Origin: Owenia fusiformis
Taxonomy: Eukaryota > Annelida > Polychaeta > Sabellida > Oweniidae
Length of the DNA: 64,000 nucleotides
Direction: 5' to 3'
Assembly (NCBI GenBank): GCA_903813345.2
Contig: CAIIXF020000002.1
Location: 19,544,455 to 19,608,454 of the forward strand
Below the pieces are notes generated by a model. The model was not told the origin of the DNA. It saw nothing but the letters and a program-made list of their open reading frames with translations, and made no database searches. The translations under genes were made by a program, and so were the position numbers. This document shows, one piece after another, positions 570 to 43,318 of this stretch (position 1 is its first letter; every line of letters starts with the position of its first letter).

Positions 570-965
570 TCCATGTCAATTTCTTCTAGTAGGTGGGCAC
601 TGGGTTAACTGCATGTTAGGGGGTCTGGACTTCAATTTATGATGCAAACGTTTCCTTTGACATGAGCCATTTTGAAAATTGCGTACATTTTAAATATAAA
701 GTGAAATTTTCAATTTTCAGTGCTCGATTTTTTTTGTTCTAAATCTACCAATGCAATTGGTCGGCTGGAAGAATGTGTTTTATTACACATTTTCTTTGAT
801 CATTTTCTCCCCCGTCGTCTAAGAGTGCTGAATATTTTTATGAGAATATGAATACATCTACACAATTTAAGACGGTTGAAGGTTTTATAAACATTCATGT
901 ATTTCGTATAATTTAAAAAATCAAAAATGTATATTGTCATCTCCAATGTACGTTGTCCCTGTAAT
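570..965 (+). repeat. Left arm of a large fold-back element
   Basis: This stretch reappears as its reverse complement at about 5330-6060. Shared phrases include cagtgctcgatttttt, taagagtgc, tttttatgagaatatg and atgtacgttgtcc in the inner half, and acttcattttatgatgcaaa-like text in the outer half. The arms are diverged by many substitutions and indels, and the right arm carries about 300 extra bases. The outer edge is uncertain by some tens of bases. Confidence 0.7.
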
Positions 966-1399
966 TAAAATGTAAACAATGCAATGATTTAATTTCAAAA
1001 CACATTAAGGGTTTTAAGAGTAACAAGAGATGTTCAACGAACATGTTCATGTATCGACCTGGTACAGATAAACGGGTAAAAGTGATTTTTTACCTCTTGT
1101 TGAATGCTATTTTATTTTATGAAAGTGTTGACATGGTGATCAATATTTGACCATTGGGTGTTATCTTCCAACTATTTTGACCATTCTGCGTCTGTAGGTT
1201 ACGTTATGTTGCACTTTTATGAATTTTAATAATCTAAGGAGTTTACGGAGAGATCTATACTAGCTAATCGAAGATGACTTTCGAACCCTGTTTATGCTAT
1301 ATCTGGAAAGTGCAGAGGTTAAATAAAGTTCAATCAAGTTGAACTAGTAATACTGGATTGTTCCGTTTCAGCTTTTAATGAATCTAATCCCCCTGCCCC
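966..1399. other. Loop of the fold-back element, no gene seen
   Basis: Sequence between the left fold-back arm and the Harbinger insertion. No coding frame, no internal repeat recognised. Confidence 0.4.
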
Positions 1400-1402
1400 T
1401 TA

Positions 1403-1460
1403 TGCTGTGGTCACACTTGCCGTGTAGGCTCACCGTTCGCCACCGTGTGGCTAATTATGG
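1403..1460 (+). repeat. Left terminal inverted repeat of the Harbinger element
   Basis: Matches the reverse complement of 5237-5294 with only scattered mismatches over 58 bases. Similarity continues weakly inward (caagacggtgacg against ctagacggcgatg). Preceded by the TTA duplication. Confidence 0.85.
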
Positions 1461-2104
1461 CAAGACGGTGACGATTCAGCGACGGTCGCATTTCTTTTTG
1501 AATTTATGACCGGGTTTATACCGTGCTATACCGGGTCTGCACCGGCTTTATACCGACCTAGTACCGGGCTAACGTGTTTAAAGAGTAGTGGCTTACCATT
1601 GTCACCGTGTTTTCAACGGGTTTATACCTTCCTTTCATCGGGTTTTCACCGGTCGGAACGCATTGGTAACGCATTGGTACCGCCAAACCGCATTGAAAAC
1701 GTCATGAAACCGCTCTCTACAAATCACTCATCTTTGGGACTAGTCTGTATGTGAACATAATTAAAGTTTGGACATCTGTCTACTCTTTTCAATTTATTGT
1801 GGGTATAACATTTTGGCAAAGTGACAAGGACTAGAGAATATATCATGACAAAGTTTCATTTGTATTCATATTCAAGATCGTCGTCATGATTAAAACAGCG
1901 ACCGTTTCGTTTAAGGTATTCAGTATAAGTTAAATTTATTATACTGTAACATATTTCATGGATTTACCCCTCATTTAAATCATTTTTAAATGACGGTGTC
2001 TTTAAATAGGCAGAACTTCTGTTCTTGCACATTTTCATTTAGCAGTGCCCCGGGAGACTGAATAGCAGAACGTTACAATACATTTCCAAGGACAGGCTGT
2101 CCTC

Positions 2105-35984: not shown

Positions 35985-36180
35985 CACGTCCTTCCCTTGC
36001 TACGTCGCAAAAATACTACCCAGAAGTATATTGGCGCGCTTATGATCACGTGATTTGGAATCTCGAACCTCGCGAGATCCAAACGTGACCGGAAGTATAG
36101 AGCCAAAAGGTGTCACTCCGGTAAATAGCACCAAAAGGTGTCACTCCGGTAAATAGCACTTCCGGGTAGGACAGTGTTTT
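35985..36180 (-). promoter_or_regulatory. Promoter-like CpG-containing segment
   Basis: In AT-rich surroundings this segment holds a CACGTG E-box (36047-36052), a palindromic CTCGCGAG (36069-36076), an ETS-type ACCGGAAGT (36088-36096) and another in reverse, ACTTCCGGGT (36158-36167). These motifs are typical of TATA-less housekeeping promoters in animals. A 28-bp unit, ccaaaaggtgtcactccggt plus aaatagca, is tandemly duplicated at 36103-36130 and 36131-36158. Direction is inferred from the possible exon at 35947-35979. Confidence 0.4.
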
Positions 36181-36755
36181 TTAATACTTTAAAAACGAAG
36201 CCATGCCAACTTCAATGATGTGAATAGTAGGTTTAAGTGTATGCAATGTGGCCATTCGAGGTATGTATGTAAAGCTGAGGTCAAGAACTTTCTAAATGTG
36301 CCATTTTAAGAAAAAAATCGCAAGAATATAGTCCCGTAAACTGGAACTACTTTATTCGTTAATTTTCATCGGTGAAGCAGGGATTTTACCTGAAAATGAG
36401 TAACTATGTTGGCGTAGTGATATATAAAAATCGAGATGCAAACCCTATGTTAAATATAGTGTCAAGATGAAGGTTATGTATAGGGGAACGCAGAAATATA
36501 GTCATTGTATGGGCTAGTTCGTTCGAAAATGGCGATATGTACCCCAGAACTTGAATTTTTTGATTTTTTTCAATATTTTTCAATGATTTACAGGAGTGAC
36601 CCATTGAAAAATATTGAAAAAAATCACTTCGATTTAGTATGATTCGGAGAAAGGGATTATACAGTTATAAGGGATTAGCAATTTATCTATTATCTTACAA
36701 TTTAGCTCAATTCTTGAATTTGAAGATCTACTGCTATATTGTTTAATATACATTA
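36181..36755. other. Non-coding stretch
   Basis: A near-palindromic phrase around ttttttcaatatttttcaat (36555-36625) is the only structure seen. The end of the retrotransposon follows. Confidence 0.3.
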
Positions 36756-36947: not shown

Positions 36948-38957
36948 TTAATCTAAAATATCAAGAGCCTGGCAGATGTAATGGCTAACTATATGAATAA
37001 TTTGTTCATTATCAGTTACAGTGAGATTTCTGTCTCCAAATAATAAAAATTGAATTTTTTCATGAGAGTTTAAATTTTGGAAACGATTGAAAAATCCTAA
37101 GGTTTTTAGTCCTGCTAGGAGAGTGCATCTTTCTTGTTGCAGCAGAGGGCAGTTTAATAAAAAGTGATGCGTTGTTTGTTGTATGTCACCACATACGCAG
37201 AAAGGGTCATTTACTGTCACAAAGTTATGGGAATATAAATGTGCTTTTAGAATCAGTCCAGCTCTAAATCTATTGAACAGAATTTCAATTTTCCTTGGCA
37301 TTGTCATATTCATTTTAGTAGTGGATACTCTGGAGTCAGGGCTCATATTTCCTCTTACTAACCTTTTAAATCTAGATATTGGTTGGCCTTTCCTGTCCTC
37401 ATATGGTATGTCATCCCACAGGGTCATAGGCCTGATAATGGTTGACTTTTTGAACGAATTACTGATTGGAAAGGGTATTCTATAATGCCTTGGTTGTCTT
37501 AGGGGCCGATTTGGAATATTCTCGTATGAACTAACTAAATCACAAATGAAAGGAGGGAAACAATGATATCTAGCCTTGAAAGCAAAAATTTTAAGATGTT
37601 CTTCTCTCCTGGAAGCTAACGTTTTCCAGTTGAGTAATGATAAAACTTTCGATGTGTTTGAACCGTGTATTGCTCCTGACACATGGCAAGCTGCTTGATA
37701 ATGAAGTCTATCCAATGTTAATAGTTTTGAAGTTGATGCCTTATCATATATTGTATCACAGTAGTCGAAATGTGGTAGTATAAATGAATTATATATATTC
37801 TCTAGGTATTTACTGTTTAGCATTTTAGTTGACTTTTTCAATGGTCTCATGAGAGAGATTACTCTCTCTATGAGTTGGTCAACATGTGAATTAAAGTTTA
37901 GATTTCGATCAAGTACTAAGCCCAGGTGTTTGTGTTTGGTGCAACTAGGAATCACATCTCCTCCTAGTTTTAAAGGGACTGGCTCTTGTAATAGTCTTCT
38001 ATTTCCTGATACAAAGGTTAAGTCAGCACTTTTTTGTGCCTTAAAAGTCATCTTCCAAGTCAAGGCCCAATTTGCCAAAATGTCAAGATCTCTTTGAAGT
38101 GGTTGGTGAATGTTTAAAATCTGATCAAAACTGTCATGTGCACTATAAATAGATGTATCATCAGCAAAAATAAATGTTTTGGATAGGAGATCATCTGGTA
38201 AGTCATTAATGTAAATAAGAAATAGGAGGGGCCCGAGGACTGATCCTTGAGGTACACCTGCATTGATTTTATAGTTATTTATATTGTGATCATTGTTATT
38301 ATTATTGTTATTTGTTCCATTATTAAGATTTCCATAATTTTCAGAAGACCAATCAGATAAGCTGTTGTTGACTTTGGCTCGAACCCTTCTGTCTTTTAAA
38401 TATGATGTCATTAGCTGTACAAAATTGAAATTACAACCATAGCCTTTAAGTTTCTGTATAAGTAATCTATGCGGGACTAAATCAAAAGCGGCTGTTAAAT
38501 CTAAAAAAGCTGAGCGGACATATTTATAATTATCTATATTTTCATGGATATTGTGAACAATGTTAATTAACTGGTTAACGGTGCTGTGCTTCGGGAGAAA
38601 ACCACTCTGGAATTTGTATAAAAGGTTGTGTTGAAGCAGATGAGCCAAAAGATGTTTGTGAATGATGGTTTCAAGAACTTTCGAAAGGTTACTTAAGAGT
38701 GTCACCGGTCTATAGTTGCTGACAAGTTCCCTGTCTCCTTTTTTATAAATAGGAACAATAATACCTTCTTTCCATATATCAGGGAAAGTGTTCTCTTCTA
38801 ATATCTTATTAAATAGTTTACTGGTTGGTAAAGCAAGAGATCTGGCACATAGTTTTAACATTTTGTTATTAATTTCATCAGGCCCTTGAGATTTAGTTGT
38901 GTCAAGGTCATGTAAAAGTTCAAAGACTTCTTCAGTCGTGGTTCTAAAATTTTGCAT
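36948..38957 (-). pseudogene. ORF2, second part: reverse transcriptase and C-terminal Cys motif
   Basis: The 669-codon frame covers the whole polymerase: fingers with PIYKKGDRELVSNYRPVTLL (69-88), palm motif A LDLTAAFD (152-159), GVPQGSVLGPLLF (234-246), the catalytic FADDTSIYS (264-272) and KHLGLVLD of the thumb side. The C-terminus has a CVCG...HHFLLNC motif (about 585-610), a putative zinc-binding knuckle seen in many CR1/Jockey-like ORF2 proteins. An Asn-rich insertion (210-230) sits just before GVPQGS. It is separated from the endonuclease half by a frame change near 38950; the first Met here is simply the first in this frame. All polymerase residues are kept, so the copy is young. It copies element RNA into DNA at nicked target sites. 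Confidence 0.9.
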
Positions 38958-40714
38958 AGTATGTTGTGTTCTAAGTTTTGGAAGGGAGGAGTGTAGTCAT
39001 CATTTATGTTAATTATGTTTTTTCCAACAAAGTATTTCATGAGAGCATTGGCTTTTTCATAGCTGGTACAGGCTGAAGTATTTAAAGTGGGATTTCTCAA
39101 TACTGGTATTGTTGACACTTGATTTTTTCCAAGAAGTTCTTTTATCAATGACCAATAATCTACAGAATTTCTACTAACATATTCAATCTTATTAACTAGT
39201 TTTCTTTCATAATCAGATTTAGCTTCTTCTATTAACTGCTTTACTAATTGATTTTGTGTTTTGAACTTGTCTCTATAGAATGGGTCATTATTTGATTTAA
39301 ATTTGTGGTGGATTTTATTTCTTTTGTATATTTCTTTTTTAATGTCATTTGTAAACCATGGCTGATCATCAAATCTAGAAGAAATTATCGTATTTGGAAT
39401 ATTATCTTTCATGATTTGAAACAATGTTTTAATATAATTGTTAGTTGCATTATTTACAGTATCTGTATCAATAAAGTTCCAATTGATTTCTGATATCTTA
39501 TTATTAATTAGTTCCAGATTAATATCATCATAATACCATATTGTCTTTTTAATTGATGGTTCCCTGGGAATTTTTAGTCTAAATTTTGTAACTATTGAAC
39601 AATGATCTGAATTTCCAACAGGTGGATCCACATTGAAAGTTAGGAGGTGCTCAGAATCAGATATAAGTAGATCAATGCAGGATTTAGAATTATTAGTTAT
39701 TCGTGTCGGTTCATTAATAAGTTGTTTAAGACCTAAGTCAATTAAGATATTACTAAGTTCATATCCTGCAAGATTATTATTATCATCCTCATACCAGATA
39801 TCATTACGAGCATTGAAGTCTCCGTTTATAATCATTCCATCACTGGGTTTAGTTAATACCTGTCCAAAGTTATCTTTCAATGAGTTAAAATATTGTCTTG
39901 TTTCATGAGCAGACATAGAGGGGGAACGGTAGAAGAACCCATACATTAATGACTTATGATTAGTCTTTATCTCAATCCAGCAGTTTGACATTTCATCAGA
40001 CATATATTCATCACAGATTTTAGATTCAATTGTGTCATGTGTCCAAAGAATCAGTCCCCGTCCATTGTTTGTTGAAAATTTTGGTTTGCCATAGCCTAAC
40101 ACATTAAAGTTCTTGGAGTTTAAATCATTTGTGGAGATGTTTCCTGTTTCGCAAATTGCCATAATATGAAACTGTTCATTTTTAGCATACTGTTTAAGGA
40201 ATTCTAATCTACCCATTGAATCAGCTTTGATACTATTTATGTTACAAAAAAGTATTTTTAGATCATCAACCGGTCCAGGATTGATTTCCACATCTCCACA
40301 TAACATTAACAGAATTCTACTTATGTGACTTGGGTTATGTATGAGCAGTACCGAACCTGGGAGGCAACCTATTGACAGTACCAGTAGAAACAATTTAAAA
40401 ACGACTAGTGAAAAATTAGAATGCTGATGCATGACATATGATAGTACATAAAAACATGTCATTGATACCAGACAAAAATAAAATACTTGTTGGGCAAATA
40501 TTATAATAAAAGACAAGAATGTAAAAACCAGTGTTCCATGTTTGGCAATGTTAAACAATAACCCTCCACCAATTAGTAAGAGGGTTAAGAGAGTACAAAT
40601 TCTGAAATATAAGCCTGGTATATCACTGGAAGAGTCTGGTGCATTGATCATTTTCAGTTTATGGTAATTAAACAACCCTACTGCTATTCTCCATATTTCA
40701 ATACAAATTGGCAT
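38855..40714 (-). pseudogene. ORF2, first part: hydrophobic leader, 2A motif, APE endonuclease
   Basis: The 619-codon frame begins with about 140 residues holding three to four hydrophobic spans (about 36-57, 61-94, 101-125), then the 2A core DVEINPGP at 141-148, preceded by LMLCG. The endonuclease follows with all the usual landmarks: N158/N160 in CNINSI, E189 in AICETG, YRSPS (262-266), NGDFN (297-301) and the NSDH motif (368-371). Residues 390-580 form the linker to the polymerase. The frame runs out at 38855 and the polymerase continues in the -1 frame from about 38957, consistent with loss of one base near the tgcaaaattttagaa stretch. If the 2A works, ribosomes would skip the Gly-Pro bond and release the leader separately from the enzyme. 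Confidence 0.88.
40271..40294 (-). other. 2A ribosome-skipping motif (DVEINPGP)
   Basis: Codons 141-148 of the ORF2 leader frame encode DVEINPGP, which fits the 2A core D(V/I)ExNPGP. The Gly-Pro junction is codons 147-148. 2A sequences at the N-terminus of LINE ORF2 proteins are known from trypanosomes, sea urchins and other invertebrates. Confidence 0.85.
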
Positions 40715-40959
40715 TAGCCAATTCCAACCCTAGCAGGATTGTAACCTACATATATCATTAGAACACATGTTAACTTACAATACAATAAAATTCGCCCCCA
40801 CGGAAAGCCTGTAACACAAAAAAGCTCAAGTTGACAAGTCATGGTATAGGCCATGAACATGGCAGTCATTGTAAATATGATCATGTTTGAGATCATACTT
40901 TCAATGTGACTGTCTGTGAATAAGGGCTCTCTGGAAAGTGTTATAAAATCATATCTCAT
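40714..40959 (-). CDS. Small hydrophobic frame overlapping the ORF2 start (TAATG)
   Basis: An 81-codon frame ends with TAA at 40714-40716, and the ORF2 leader ATG (40712-40714) overlaps it as TAATG. Residues 21-41 (about MISNMIIFTMTAMFMAYTM) are hydrophobic. TAATG overlaps support termination-reinitiation in some LINEs such as SART1. It may be the true upstream end of the ORF2 leader displaced by a frameshift, a separate small protein, or a chance frame. Confidence 0.3.
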   Translation of the reverse strand: MRYDFITLSREPLFTDSHIESMISNMIIFTMTAMFMAYTMTCQLELFCVTGFPWGRILLYCKLTCVLMIYVGYNPARVGIG

Positions 40960-42325
40960 GTGCCATTATAAGTTTTTTTTATTCAATGTCCAAAACCCTA
41001 AATGGGTTTGACATTGTCTAGTCTTTACCCAATCATTATTTAACCATACTGTTTTAAAGATGTATATGTCAGCCTATAATTTTATTGCACAAATACTTCA
41101 AAAAAAGAACTCAAATTTTTGTTTTGAAATAATTCCTCAGTGATAGCATAATAACATTGCATTTAGGACTGTGTATGTGATTATACTACACTAAGATTGG
41201 ATACCCTGAGATTAGATTATTATTAGGTGTAACACAACTCTGGATGAGAGTTGGGATAGCTTCATTCTTAGCAGAACACCCTGAATTAAAAGACATATTG
41301 GACTATTGCCTAAGGGTCATTAGTTATTAGTAAATACAAACATTGTTCACTTTACATGACCTTTTACAAGTTTCCACAGTTAGAGTGTGAGGTCATTTAG
41401 AAAATTGATAGCAGGGTATTGTGATTTAGAGTACTGCAAAACAAAACTTGTAAACCACTGACCACACTCAATGCAATTCAACTGTGAATGTTTTCCAATT
41501 CCCCAATATATACAGATTTAGCATATACGCATAATTATCCATGTTAGAGTACGCTATGCTATGCATAAAAATACAAGTCGAGATTGACATACGTGTAGCA
41601 TTATGCACAAATCGAAGAAAATATAGGCTAGATTCATGTTGTTGTTATTGGAATGCTCATCATGCCATAACAAACGTTGGCAGCAAAAAATTATATTAAA
41701 AAAAACACAAGGATTTTGCCGATAGTATTTCAACAGTGCATGATACATACATGTAGTTAGTTTTTTACCTTGATAATGCTCCCGAAGTTATTCAGTTCAA
41801 GTGATAATTATCATAATGAAATACAGCTGACATGCCTTTACAATGTACTATAAACATAACTGTACTGCCATAGCCGGGATTAATCATCCTACGCATGCGC
41901 AATAAACAATAACAAGTGTACTTGTGTTTACATGGTACATCTTAGATTACATTTATTTTGCACCGTAATACTAAGTTATGATCAGTGATTTTGGACATTT
42001 CTAATAACAAAAGAAGTTATGTTTTCATTCAAGCATGTAGTTAATAAACCATAGCAATTAAATGTTTCATAAAACTGGAAAAATGGGTCGTTTATTCGTT
42101 TGAATTTGTGAGATGAATTGCCCAGTTTAACCATAAATTTACTGAGATACTGTACAGTCTATTCCTTGCAATGTCTTTAGTTTGATGCACGAGTGACTGA
42201 TTTACTATGTCTTAATAATGTAGAGACAGTATTTTACAGTTTAGCTTATAACATGTGTGAAGATGATTATACTTATCAGTTGACATTCAACAGTCAATGT
42301 TTATGGAGACGGGGTTCAAATGTCT
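40960..42325 (-). other. Linker between ORF1 and ORF2 with no coding frame
   Basis: About 1.4 kb on the retrotransposon strand without a long frame. It is longer than most inter-ORF spacers. No TIRs or poly(A) marks within it point to a separate insertion, apart from a T8 at about 40973. Confidence 0.4.
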
Positions 42326-43318
42326 CTAGGATGTTTCAGCAGAACTCGTTGTAGCCGTAACCCGAGGTCCTTGTCTGGTAGTACGCACTGGTTCTCTGAG
42401 TCTCATATTTATGCTTTGTTCAATGTCATCTGTAACCTCGAAGGATATGATATCACCTCGTCGCAGTCTCCCAAGGATTTTTCCGTTTGAGCTCCAACCT
42501 TGCACAATCTCAGAATGCTGCTTAATTTGGTATAGCAGCTGGCGGTTCCCGGACCCGGGGCTAAGATCCTCGTAAATGATGATAGATGATCCCTTCAATT
42601 CCCTCCTCCGTTTCATCGAGTCGTCTTTGGATCCTCTGTATTTGAATTTAACAATTATAGGACGTGGATATCTGCTTGATGCGTTAAAGACTCCAAGTCG
42701 ATGAGATACCTCAATCTTTTCAGGGTCAAATACCCCGGGGATTTTGTTCTGAATAATATCGTTATTCGAGATCGACACACTACAATCCTCAGTCGCTGGG
42801 TTATTCGATTCAGGAATGCCCAGTATACGTACAGTGTTTTTTCTGCTATATTGGGCGTTGTGGTTACAACTGATTTCTAGTTTCTCAATTCTTTGTTCAA
42901 GAGAGTTCACCTTGATTTTGAGGGATGAGTTTTCTTTTTCTAAGGAGTCTAGCCTGATGTTAGTCGCTTCAATCGCTTTTGTGACAGCTTTACCTACGAT
43001 TTTACTCACAGTTTTATTAATGGTCTTCTCATGGGATTTAATGGTATCACTGAACATTTTCATTATCCATTCTTTCGTTACTCCCGAATCTTCTGTTTCT
43101 TCATGTAACACATCTTCATATTCATCTTCGGTTAAGTTTTCATCATCATCATCGCTATAATTATGAATACTGAAAGTACTGTCACTATTACCAGCTTGCC
43201 TGCGTTTTCTAGGATTGGCAATTTCCGTCCCGGAAGTCTCTTTGGTTGTTCCTCCATTTTTATCCTTGGTGACAAAGAAGCTCGCAATGTTGGCCGTGTT
43301 CTGCTTCACGGTGCTCAT
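42326..43318 (-). CDS. Retrotransposon ORF1 protein: coiled coil and RRM-like domain
   Basis: A complete 330-codon frame. It opens with a Ser/Thr-rich segment, a basic RKRR (37-40) resembling a nuclear signal, an acidic patch SDDDDENLTEDEYEDV (55-70), a long coiled coil (about 80-150, with DSLEKENSSLKIKVNSLEQR), then the RRM-like part starting NTVRILGIPE (161-170) and a C-terminal region with HRLGV, PRPIIVKFKYR and GSSIIIYEDLSPG. This layout matches ORF1 proteins of L1-type and related LINEs (Transposase_22-like): trimeric RNA-binding chaperones that coat the element RNA. It is intact with no stop. It lies 1.6 kb upstream of ORF2 on the same strand. A start at 43318 is the first ATG of the frame. 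Confidence 0.8.
   Translation of the reverse strand: MSTVKQNTANIASFFVTKDKNGGTTKETSGTEIANPRKRRQAGNSDSTFSIHNYSDDDDENLTEDEYEDVLHEETEDSGVTKEWIMKMFSDTIKSHEKTINKTVSKIVGKAVTKAIEATNIRLDSLEKENSSLKIKVNSLEQRIEKLEISCNHNAQYSRKNTVRILGIPESNNPATEDCSVSISNNDIIQNKIPGVFDPEKIEVSHRLGVFNASSRYPRPIIVKFKYRGSKDDSMKRRRELKGSSIIIYEDLSPGSGNRQLLYQIKQHSEIVQGWSSNGKILGRLRRGDIISFEVTDDIEQSINMRLREPVRTTRQGPRVTATTSSAETS

Follow-up and report, generated by a model that had tools for sequence, protein, structure and literature searches.

The question raised by this locus is why the second open reading frame (ORF2) of a long interspersed nuclear element (LINE) should begin with a hydrophobic polypeptide that ends in a 2A (StopGo) ribosome-skipping site. 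The element lies in a 64,000-nucleotide stretch of the annelid Owenia fusiformis (contig CAIIXF020000002.1, positions 19,544,455 to 19,608,454; the whole stretch is named the window), and the polypeptide is referred to as the leader. Its frame on the minus strand (40714→40271) opens with MPICIEIWRIAVGLFN, the ATG being at 40714-40712, and continues for 147 residues to the NPG of the 2A site LLMLCGDVEINPGP, where DVEINPGP occupies 40294-40271 after CG and the endonuclease follows in frame. The first-pass annotation had described a hydrophobic leader, DVEINPGP and an endonuclease in one ORF2 frame, and direct reading confirmed this and fixed the strand. It had counted three to four hydrophobic spans; three were recovered on the Kyte-Doolittle scale (19-residue window, >1.6), and the further stretch proved to be short and to overlap the 2A context. 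Endonuclease followed by reverse transcriptase, as in apurinic/apyrimidinic endonuclease (APE)-type LINEs, was found in the window with PF14529/PF03372 and PF00078. The sequence evidence taken together suggests that many LINEs of this genome make a third, membrane-bound protein, which is apparently released by ribosome skipping.

The 498-Mb genome assembly was surveyed with the window leader and with a divergent leader, L031; these searches scored the best candidates only, and the counts of matches are lower bounds. With the window leader, at least 57 matches reached E ≤ 0.001, one of them the window copy itself, and with the L031 leader there were at least 80. Near matches to the window leader comprised five complete copies at 99% identity and two partial ones at 97% and 73%, the remaining matches being 25–49% identical, many of them along the entire leader or close to it. 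Open frames of 1215–1278 amino acids hold several of the divergent copies. When a complete leader in a single open frame was required of 112 fetched loci and the window, 78 entries were retained, which formed 40 families at 70% amino-acid identity with leaders of 142–163 residues up to NPG, counted from the Met position. The start motif [WY]-R-x-x-[IV]-[GC] is present in all 40 families by the extraction script's own rule and is thus not independent evidence. Within it and just after it, 32 families show an invariant R and keep each of W, G, F and N at 90% or more; seven residues ahead of the motif (six between Met and W), 30 of the 40 have a Met. Twenty endonuclease copies hit by neither leader search were also read; they were hand-picked from 150 listed, most of them having long open frames, and are hence not a random sample. 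Twelve had a complete leader, in seven the C-terminal part was present within an open frame, and one started after the 2A. Furthermore, a 25-base pattern for GD[VIM][DEHQ]xNPG+C matched the genome exactly 155 times, against 0 for the reversed pattern. Because of these counts and the complete leaders in 40 families, the association of leader and 2A is not due to chance. The first-pass annotation had proposed to check other genomic copies for leader and 2A together, and they do occur together in 40 families; it had also called such a membrane leader with 2A unusual, a word that needs qualifying, as the arrangement is the usual one for this LINE group within this genome. PF14529 and then the reverse transcriptase were found within single frames of L013, L023, L031 and L028; in L013 and L028, PF03372 did not reach its curated threshold. 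The Pfam RNase H profiles gave no match at E ≤ 0.01 in these four full ORF2s.

The ratio of nonsynonymous to synonymous divergence (dN/dS) was judged on four pairs of families with dS of 0.13–1.0, the window's own family being too alike to judge. It was 0.20 for the leaders of L009/L018 (dS 1.0; Fisher P = 1e-12), 0.28 for L013/L035 (dS 0.70; P = 5e-8), 0.31 for L011/L012 (dS 0.13; P = 0.005) and 0.33 for L077/L082 (dS 0.73; P = 8e-7), each significantly below 1. A lack of purifying selection, which according to the first-pass annotation would have told against its reading, was thus not seen in these pairs. Pairs with dS of 1.4 or more, which are saturated, gave lower-quality values of up to 0.39. 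Where the divergence allows a judgement, the substitutions in the leader are those of a protein under purifying selection. The distances between leaders and those between endonucleases (first 250 residues) were correlated across 12 families with r = 0.91, which was reached in 0 of 2000 permutations, and the leader has therefore been inherited with the enzyme and not swapped.

The hydropathy profiles of the 40 leaders agree in register, the mean r being 0.576, whereas 500 residue shuffles did not exceed 0.039. The mean net charge over the 40 families was +3.0 at the N-terminus, −0.05 in loop 1, +1.95 in loop 2 and −0.17 after the third transmembrane span (TM3), and loop 2 was positive in 37 families and negative in none. 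The positive-inside test gave P = 9e-7 for the N-terminus against loop 1 and P = 2e-7 for loop 2 against loop 1, values that are optimistic as the families are related. This charge bias predicts that the N-terminus and the second loop are cytosolic and the C-terminus luminal, provided that the hydrophobic stretch of the 2A does not form a fourth span. With such a topology, the unskipped product would have its endonuclease–reverse transcriptase (EN-RT) in the lumen of the endoplasmic reticulum (ER). TM3 ends at a Pro-Gly, P119 being kept by 26 of 32 families and G120 by 23 of 29. AlphaFold2, run with 32 sequences, placed helices of the window leader at residues 5–23, 33–54, 62–97, 101–116 and 128–138, i.e., one helix at the N-terminus, three long ones and a short one at the end, and gave the same order in L031, which is 19% identical to it. 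That W, R, G, F and N are conserved close to the N-terminus points to a function other than targeting alone, and since specific residues are kept, the leader would probably have a protein–protein or membrane-shaping role of its own.

At the 2A site, the window DVEINPGP follows the StopGo core octapeptide rule (D/G/C/N)(V/I)ExNPGP, and LLMLCG ahead of it follows one of the upstream hexapeptide rules (L-rich then [ASC]G) and is of the LLLLSG type of RNA-virus StopGo sites (PMC12846837). This hexapeptide rule is kept in 26 of the 40 families, or in 35 with p11 left free, and p7 is Leu in 37. Within the octapeptide, p12 D, p17 P and p18 G are found always and p13 is V or I, whereas p14 varies (E in 21, H in 16, K in two, Q in one), as do p16 (N in 36, H in four) and p19 (P in 37, Q in three). 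Eighteen octapeptides are canonical, 12 differ by H at p14 only and three by H at p16 only. The 2026 study of viral StopGo reports that natural H at p14 or p16 is >95% active, that Gln at p19 keeps >70% activity in F2A, that Leu at p7 is important, and that D is preceded by an L-rich motif closing with (A/S/C)G (PMC12846837). Thus, the variation in these LINEs appears to lie largely within what works in viruses, 33 of the 40 families being canonical or carrying one such change. The possibility that the H, Q and K variants mark dead 2A sites was set aside for these 33, because H at p14 or p16 is active in the viral sites. The LINE sites share the core octapeptide rules and the L-rich (A/S/C)G hexapeptide with those of RNA viruses, and differ in that the carrier is a LINE group and in having K at p14 and N or F at p11, forms outside those that the available part of PMC12846837 reports as tested.

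We therefore favour, with a probability of about 0.6, the reading that the N-terminus of this ORF2 is a separate conserved product of ~147 residues, with a cytosolic basic N-terminus (M-x6-W-R-x-x-[IV]-G-x-F-N) and three ER spans, which is released by the 2A and leaves a soluble EN-RT made at the membrane. A membrane-targeted accessory protein had been one of two suggestions of the first-pass annotation, and the anatomy and the selection speak for it. Translation would begin at the leader, and TM1 would emerge from the ribosome well ahead of the decoding of the 2A; the signal recognition particle would dock the translating ribosome, together with the LINE RNA, on the ER, where TM1–TM3 would insert. 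Judged from the lengths, TM1 should be clear of the ribosome long before NPG/P is reached, so that the ribosome and the LINE RNA would already be on the ER at the moment of skipping. The bond at NPG/P would then be skipped, freeing the leader as a polytopic membrane protein, and the same ribosome would make a soluble EN-RT starting from Pro, which could meet the RNA and the ORF1 protein on the surface of the membrane and travel to the nucleus. In this way the leader would tie translation, and probably also the assembly of the ribonucleoprotein (RNP), to the ER or nuclear envelope. We propose that the 2A core hardly varies because failed skipping would thread EN-RT into the lumen.

LINEs are normally described as two-protein elements whose RNP is assembled in the cytosol. 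A wider reading, possible and held only tentatively, is that in this LINE group a third, three-span protein of the ER or nuclear envelope brings the RNA and the polymerase to an assembly site at the membrane and, through the 2A, sets the amount of freed EN-RT, which would amount to a membrane-based stage of replication or transmission. If the leader is indeed a conserved polytopic membrane protein, made before the enzyme in fixed order and cut off by 2A, some LINEs would have a membrane stage, their conserved 2A would gain a reason to exist, and they would offer a natural test of 2A on ER-docked ribosomes. For parts of the favoured scheme there are precedents: the nascent chain of Ty1 can bring the RNA of this retrotransposon to the ER co-translationally (PMC3945221), and an action at membranes has been proposed for the esterase found in CR1-type LINEs (PMC3905857).

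Several observations weigh against a separate, 2A-released membrane protein or qualify the evidence for it. The span count is barely above that of same-composition shuffles (mean 2.9 vs 2.4 in 32 families), TM3 exceeds a Kyte-Doolittle value of 1.6 in just 25 of the 40 families, with all three spans above 1.2 in 31, and TM3 is poorly aligned in L100 and L101. The confidence of AlphaFold2 was moderate, the predicted local distance difference test (pLDDT) being 76 and the predicted template modelling score (pTM) 0.48 for the window leader, and 71 and 0.42 for L031. The endonuclease is more constrained than the leader (0.08 vs 0.20 in L009/L018), and over 16 near-identical pairs the leader shows 16 synonymous changes to 28 nonsynonymous ones, a dN/dS of about 0.5, the L031/L052 pair alone having one against five; these pairs say little about selection, being young copies of which many are dead. 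The window copy is itself broken, its ORF2 being interrupted because the reverse transcriptase lies in another frame than the endonuclease, and no frame longer than 781 amino acids is open in any of the six near-identical copies that keep the whole leader. Seven of the 40 octapeptides (K or Q at p14; H at p14 with Q at p19; H at p14 with H at p16) fall outside the forms reported as tested in the part of PMC12846837 covered, and seven of the 33 others carry Asn at p11, where Gly is strongly preferred before D (PMC12846837); moreover, some upstream proteins can inhibit 2A through their translocation into the ER (PMC2978324). Finally, no in-frame AUG was found before the leader in seven of the 40 representatives, a number that comes down to six families as L093, a relative of L030, has one.

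The region upstream of the leader bears on this last point. A coding-like tail, G-[IV]-G-stop with variable third codon positions, stands directly upstream of the leader in 22 of the 40 families, sometimes with stop and start overlapping as TAATG, and often has P-[AV]-[RK]-x ahead of it (families L009–L100). All six AUG-less families carry the tail, which hints that the initiation of their leaders may be coupled to termination of the upstream frame. Splicing of ORF1 onto this tail was considered, and no clear donor was seen near the end of the window ORF1 by inspection of the sequence.

Among the rival explanations, dual targeting, the other suggestion of the first-pass annotation, survives best and is nevertheless unlikely. 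By analogy with the sea-urchin NLR proteins, the leader would chiefly be a removable anchor, and controlled failure of skipping would leave EN-RT membrane-tethered or secreted. It draws on the finding that an N-terminal 2A/signal sequence splits products between the cytoplasm and the exocytic pathway (PMC4981915), on the drop of skipping that can occur under ER translocation (PMC2978324), which keeps this reading alive, and on less usual octapeptides in several families, e.g., DVHPNPGQ. The predicted topology would place the fused EN-RT in the lumen, which argues against this as the main purpose; a plain anchor has no need for WRxxIGxFN and PG, which are conserved in families ~20% identical, and all 40 families keep the same D, P and G in the 2A.

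Rather improbable is that the leader is a viroporin- or fusogen-like accessory protein apart from translation, which would aid the transfer of RNPs between cells or across membranes. The lipid-binding esterase ORF1 proteins suggest that membranes matter to LINE cycles (PMC3905857); against it, no convincing similarity was found in Pfam, BFVD or PDB folds. Pfam gave only single weak matches for 32 leaders (best E = 0.015), and Foldseek searches of the leader models against BFVD and PDB gave no match at E ≤ 0.001, with VIA-align reaching a Z of at most 6.4 over 15 PDB chains. PHROGs offered nothing convincing (best E = 0.03), and 16 pattern matches in the IMG/VR viral contigs included no relative of the leader. 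Seven PDB sequences matched the leader at E up to 10 (best E = 0.0014); five of the seven alignments end at the C-terminus of the chain, and these are presumably remnants of 2A left on recombinant proteins.

That the leader is a nascent-chain device, acting through tunnel occupancy or pausing for the 2A with no job after release, is very improbable: the leucines at p6–p11 are part of the 2A context, but 2A activity resides in ~25 residues (PMC11512398), compared with conservation over 140 and a strong motif at the far N-terminus. A chance hydrophobic extension of the ORF with a chance NPGP, to which the shuffled span counts alone would lend colour, was rejected as having a negligible probability on the family count, the selection, the hydropathy register and the genome pattern counts.

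What is new in the favoured reading is the conserved membrane protein added to a 2A-bearing LINE. No description of a conserved polytopic leader was found in the literature searched, as judged by titles and abstract openings, most subscription papers lying outside the scope of the search. Odon et al. in 2013 reportedly described 2A-like sites in APE-type non-LTR (long terminal repeat) retrotransposons, some of them shown to skip, and are said to have linked 2A to loss of ORF1. The elements here are like those in carrying a 2A-like site, and differ in that the 2A ends a 147-residue conserved three-span protein and in that the window element probably keeps its ORF1. The presence of 2A in LINEs and the doubling of 2A as a signal sequence were already known, as the first-pass annotation had said; the former is cited and the latter described for sea-urchin NLR in Roulston et al. 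2016 (PMC4981915). Those NLR proteins likewise have an N-terminal hydrophobic, ER-directing sequence ending in 2A, which is a 26-residue signal sequence on an immune receptor there and a polytopic protein on a LINE enzyme here. The GDSL/SGNH esterase ORF1 of CR1/L2-type LINEs is also a LINE-encoded membrane-associated protein, proposed to aid RNP assembly at membranes, and differs in being a lipid-binding enzyme in ORF1 and not a polytopic 2A-released leader of ORF2 (PMC3905857). The sORF2 of Drosophila MDG1-group LTR retrotransposons such as 412 is similarly a small transmembrane accessory protein; by its description it is set apart as a separate small ORF in LTR elements that is cell–cell fusogen-like (PMC11952523).

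Table 1. Features of the LINE in the window (positions of the 64,000-nucleotide stretch).
Feature	Position	Strand	Basis
Leader, predicted three-span membrane protein, 147 residues, C-terminal NPG	40274..40714	-	Direct reading; common to 40 families
N-terminal motif WRIAVGLFN, residues 8-16	40667..40693	-	Conservation in 32 families
Predicted TM1, residues 36-54	40553..40609	-	Mean hydropathy 1.88 over 40 families
Predicted TM2, residues 64-91	40442..40525	-	Mean hydropathy 1.98 over 40 families
Predicted TM3, residues 105-122, ends at Pro-Gly	40349..40402	-	Mean hydropathy 1.68 over 40 families
StopGo/2A site LLMLCG-DVEINPG/P (p6-p19)	40271..40312	-	Octapeptide D, P, G invariant in 40 families
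APE-type endonuclease domain, in the frame of the leader	39602..40243	-	PF14529 E = 1.8e-12; PF03372 E = 8e-7
Reverse transcriptase domain, frame differs from endonuclease	38019..38744	-	PF00078 E = 2.8e-30; ORF 36948-38957
Upstream coding-like tail N-P-A-R-V-G-I-G-stop, TAA overlapping leader ATG (TAATG)	40714..40740	-	G-[IV]-G-stop in 22/40 families
1.6-kb gap, ORF1 to leader	40717..42325	-	Parts common to L002-L006
ORF1-like frame, 330 amino acids, coiled coil	42326..43318	-	Open frame; Pfam matches sub-threshold, mostly coiled-coil

The coiled-coil frame of the window is probably the ORF1 of the same element. The gap between it and the leader is common to L004 and L005 over the 1.5 kb read and to L003 in two blocks, and the region upstream of the leader is matched by L002 to −956 and by L006 to −149. 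In L016, a frame that by eye is like the C-terminal part of the window ORF1 ends 1.2 kb upstream of the leader. Distances of ~1.6 kb in the window and 1.2 kb in L016 (by eye) are long for the gap between the two ORFs of a LINE.

Hydrophobic starts with a 2A were also seen in other LINEs. On the minus strand of L113 (G000:C6:4953400-4957200), an ORF1-like coiled-coil frame (by eye) starts with MGISVEQWRACIG and has one hydrophobic span and SGDVEMNPGP, i.e., the start motif of the leader and a 2A on the ORF1-like frame of another LINE. L114 (nucleotides 938–2060, plus strand) and L115 (minus strand) have a PHD-like cysteine cluster (by eye) and begin with an unrelated signal-peptide-like stretch, after which come a run of hydrophobic residues and then GDIHPNPGP or GDIQVNPGP; a second LINE group therefore also has hydrophobic leaders ahead of a 2A-like site. 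Past the reverse transcriptase frame of the window lie an inverted repeat whose 25-base arms match perfectly across a spacer of 16 bases (36561-36626, ~0.3 kb from the end of the frame) and two adjoining 28-base repeats, 93% alike (36097-36152, ~0.8 kb from it).
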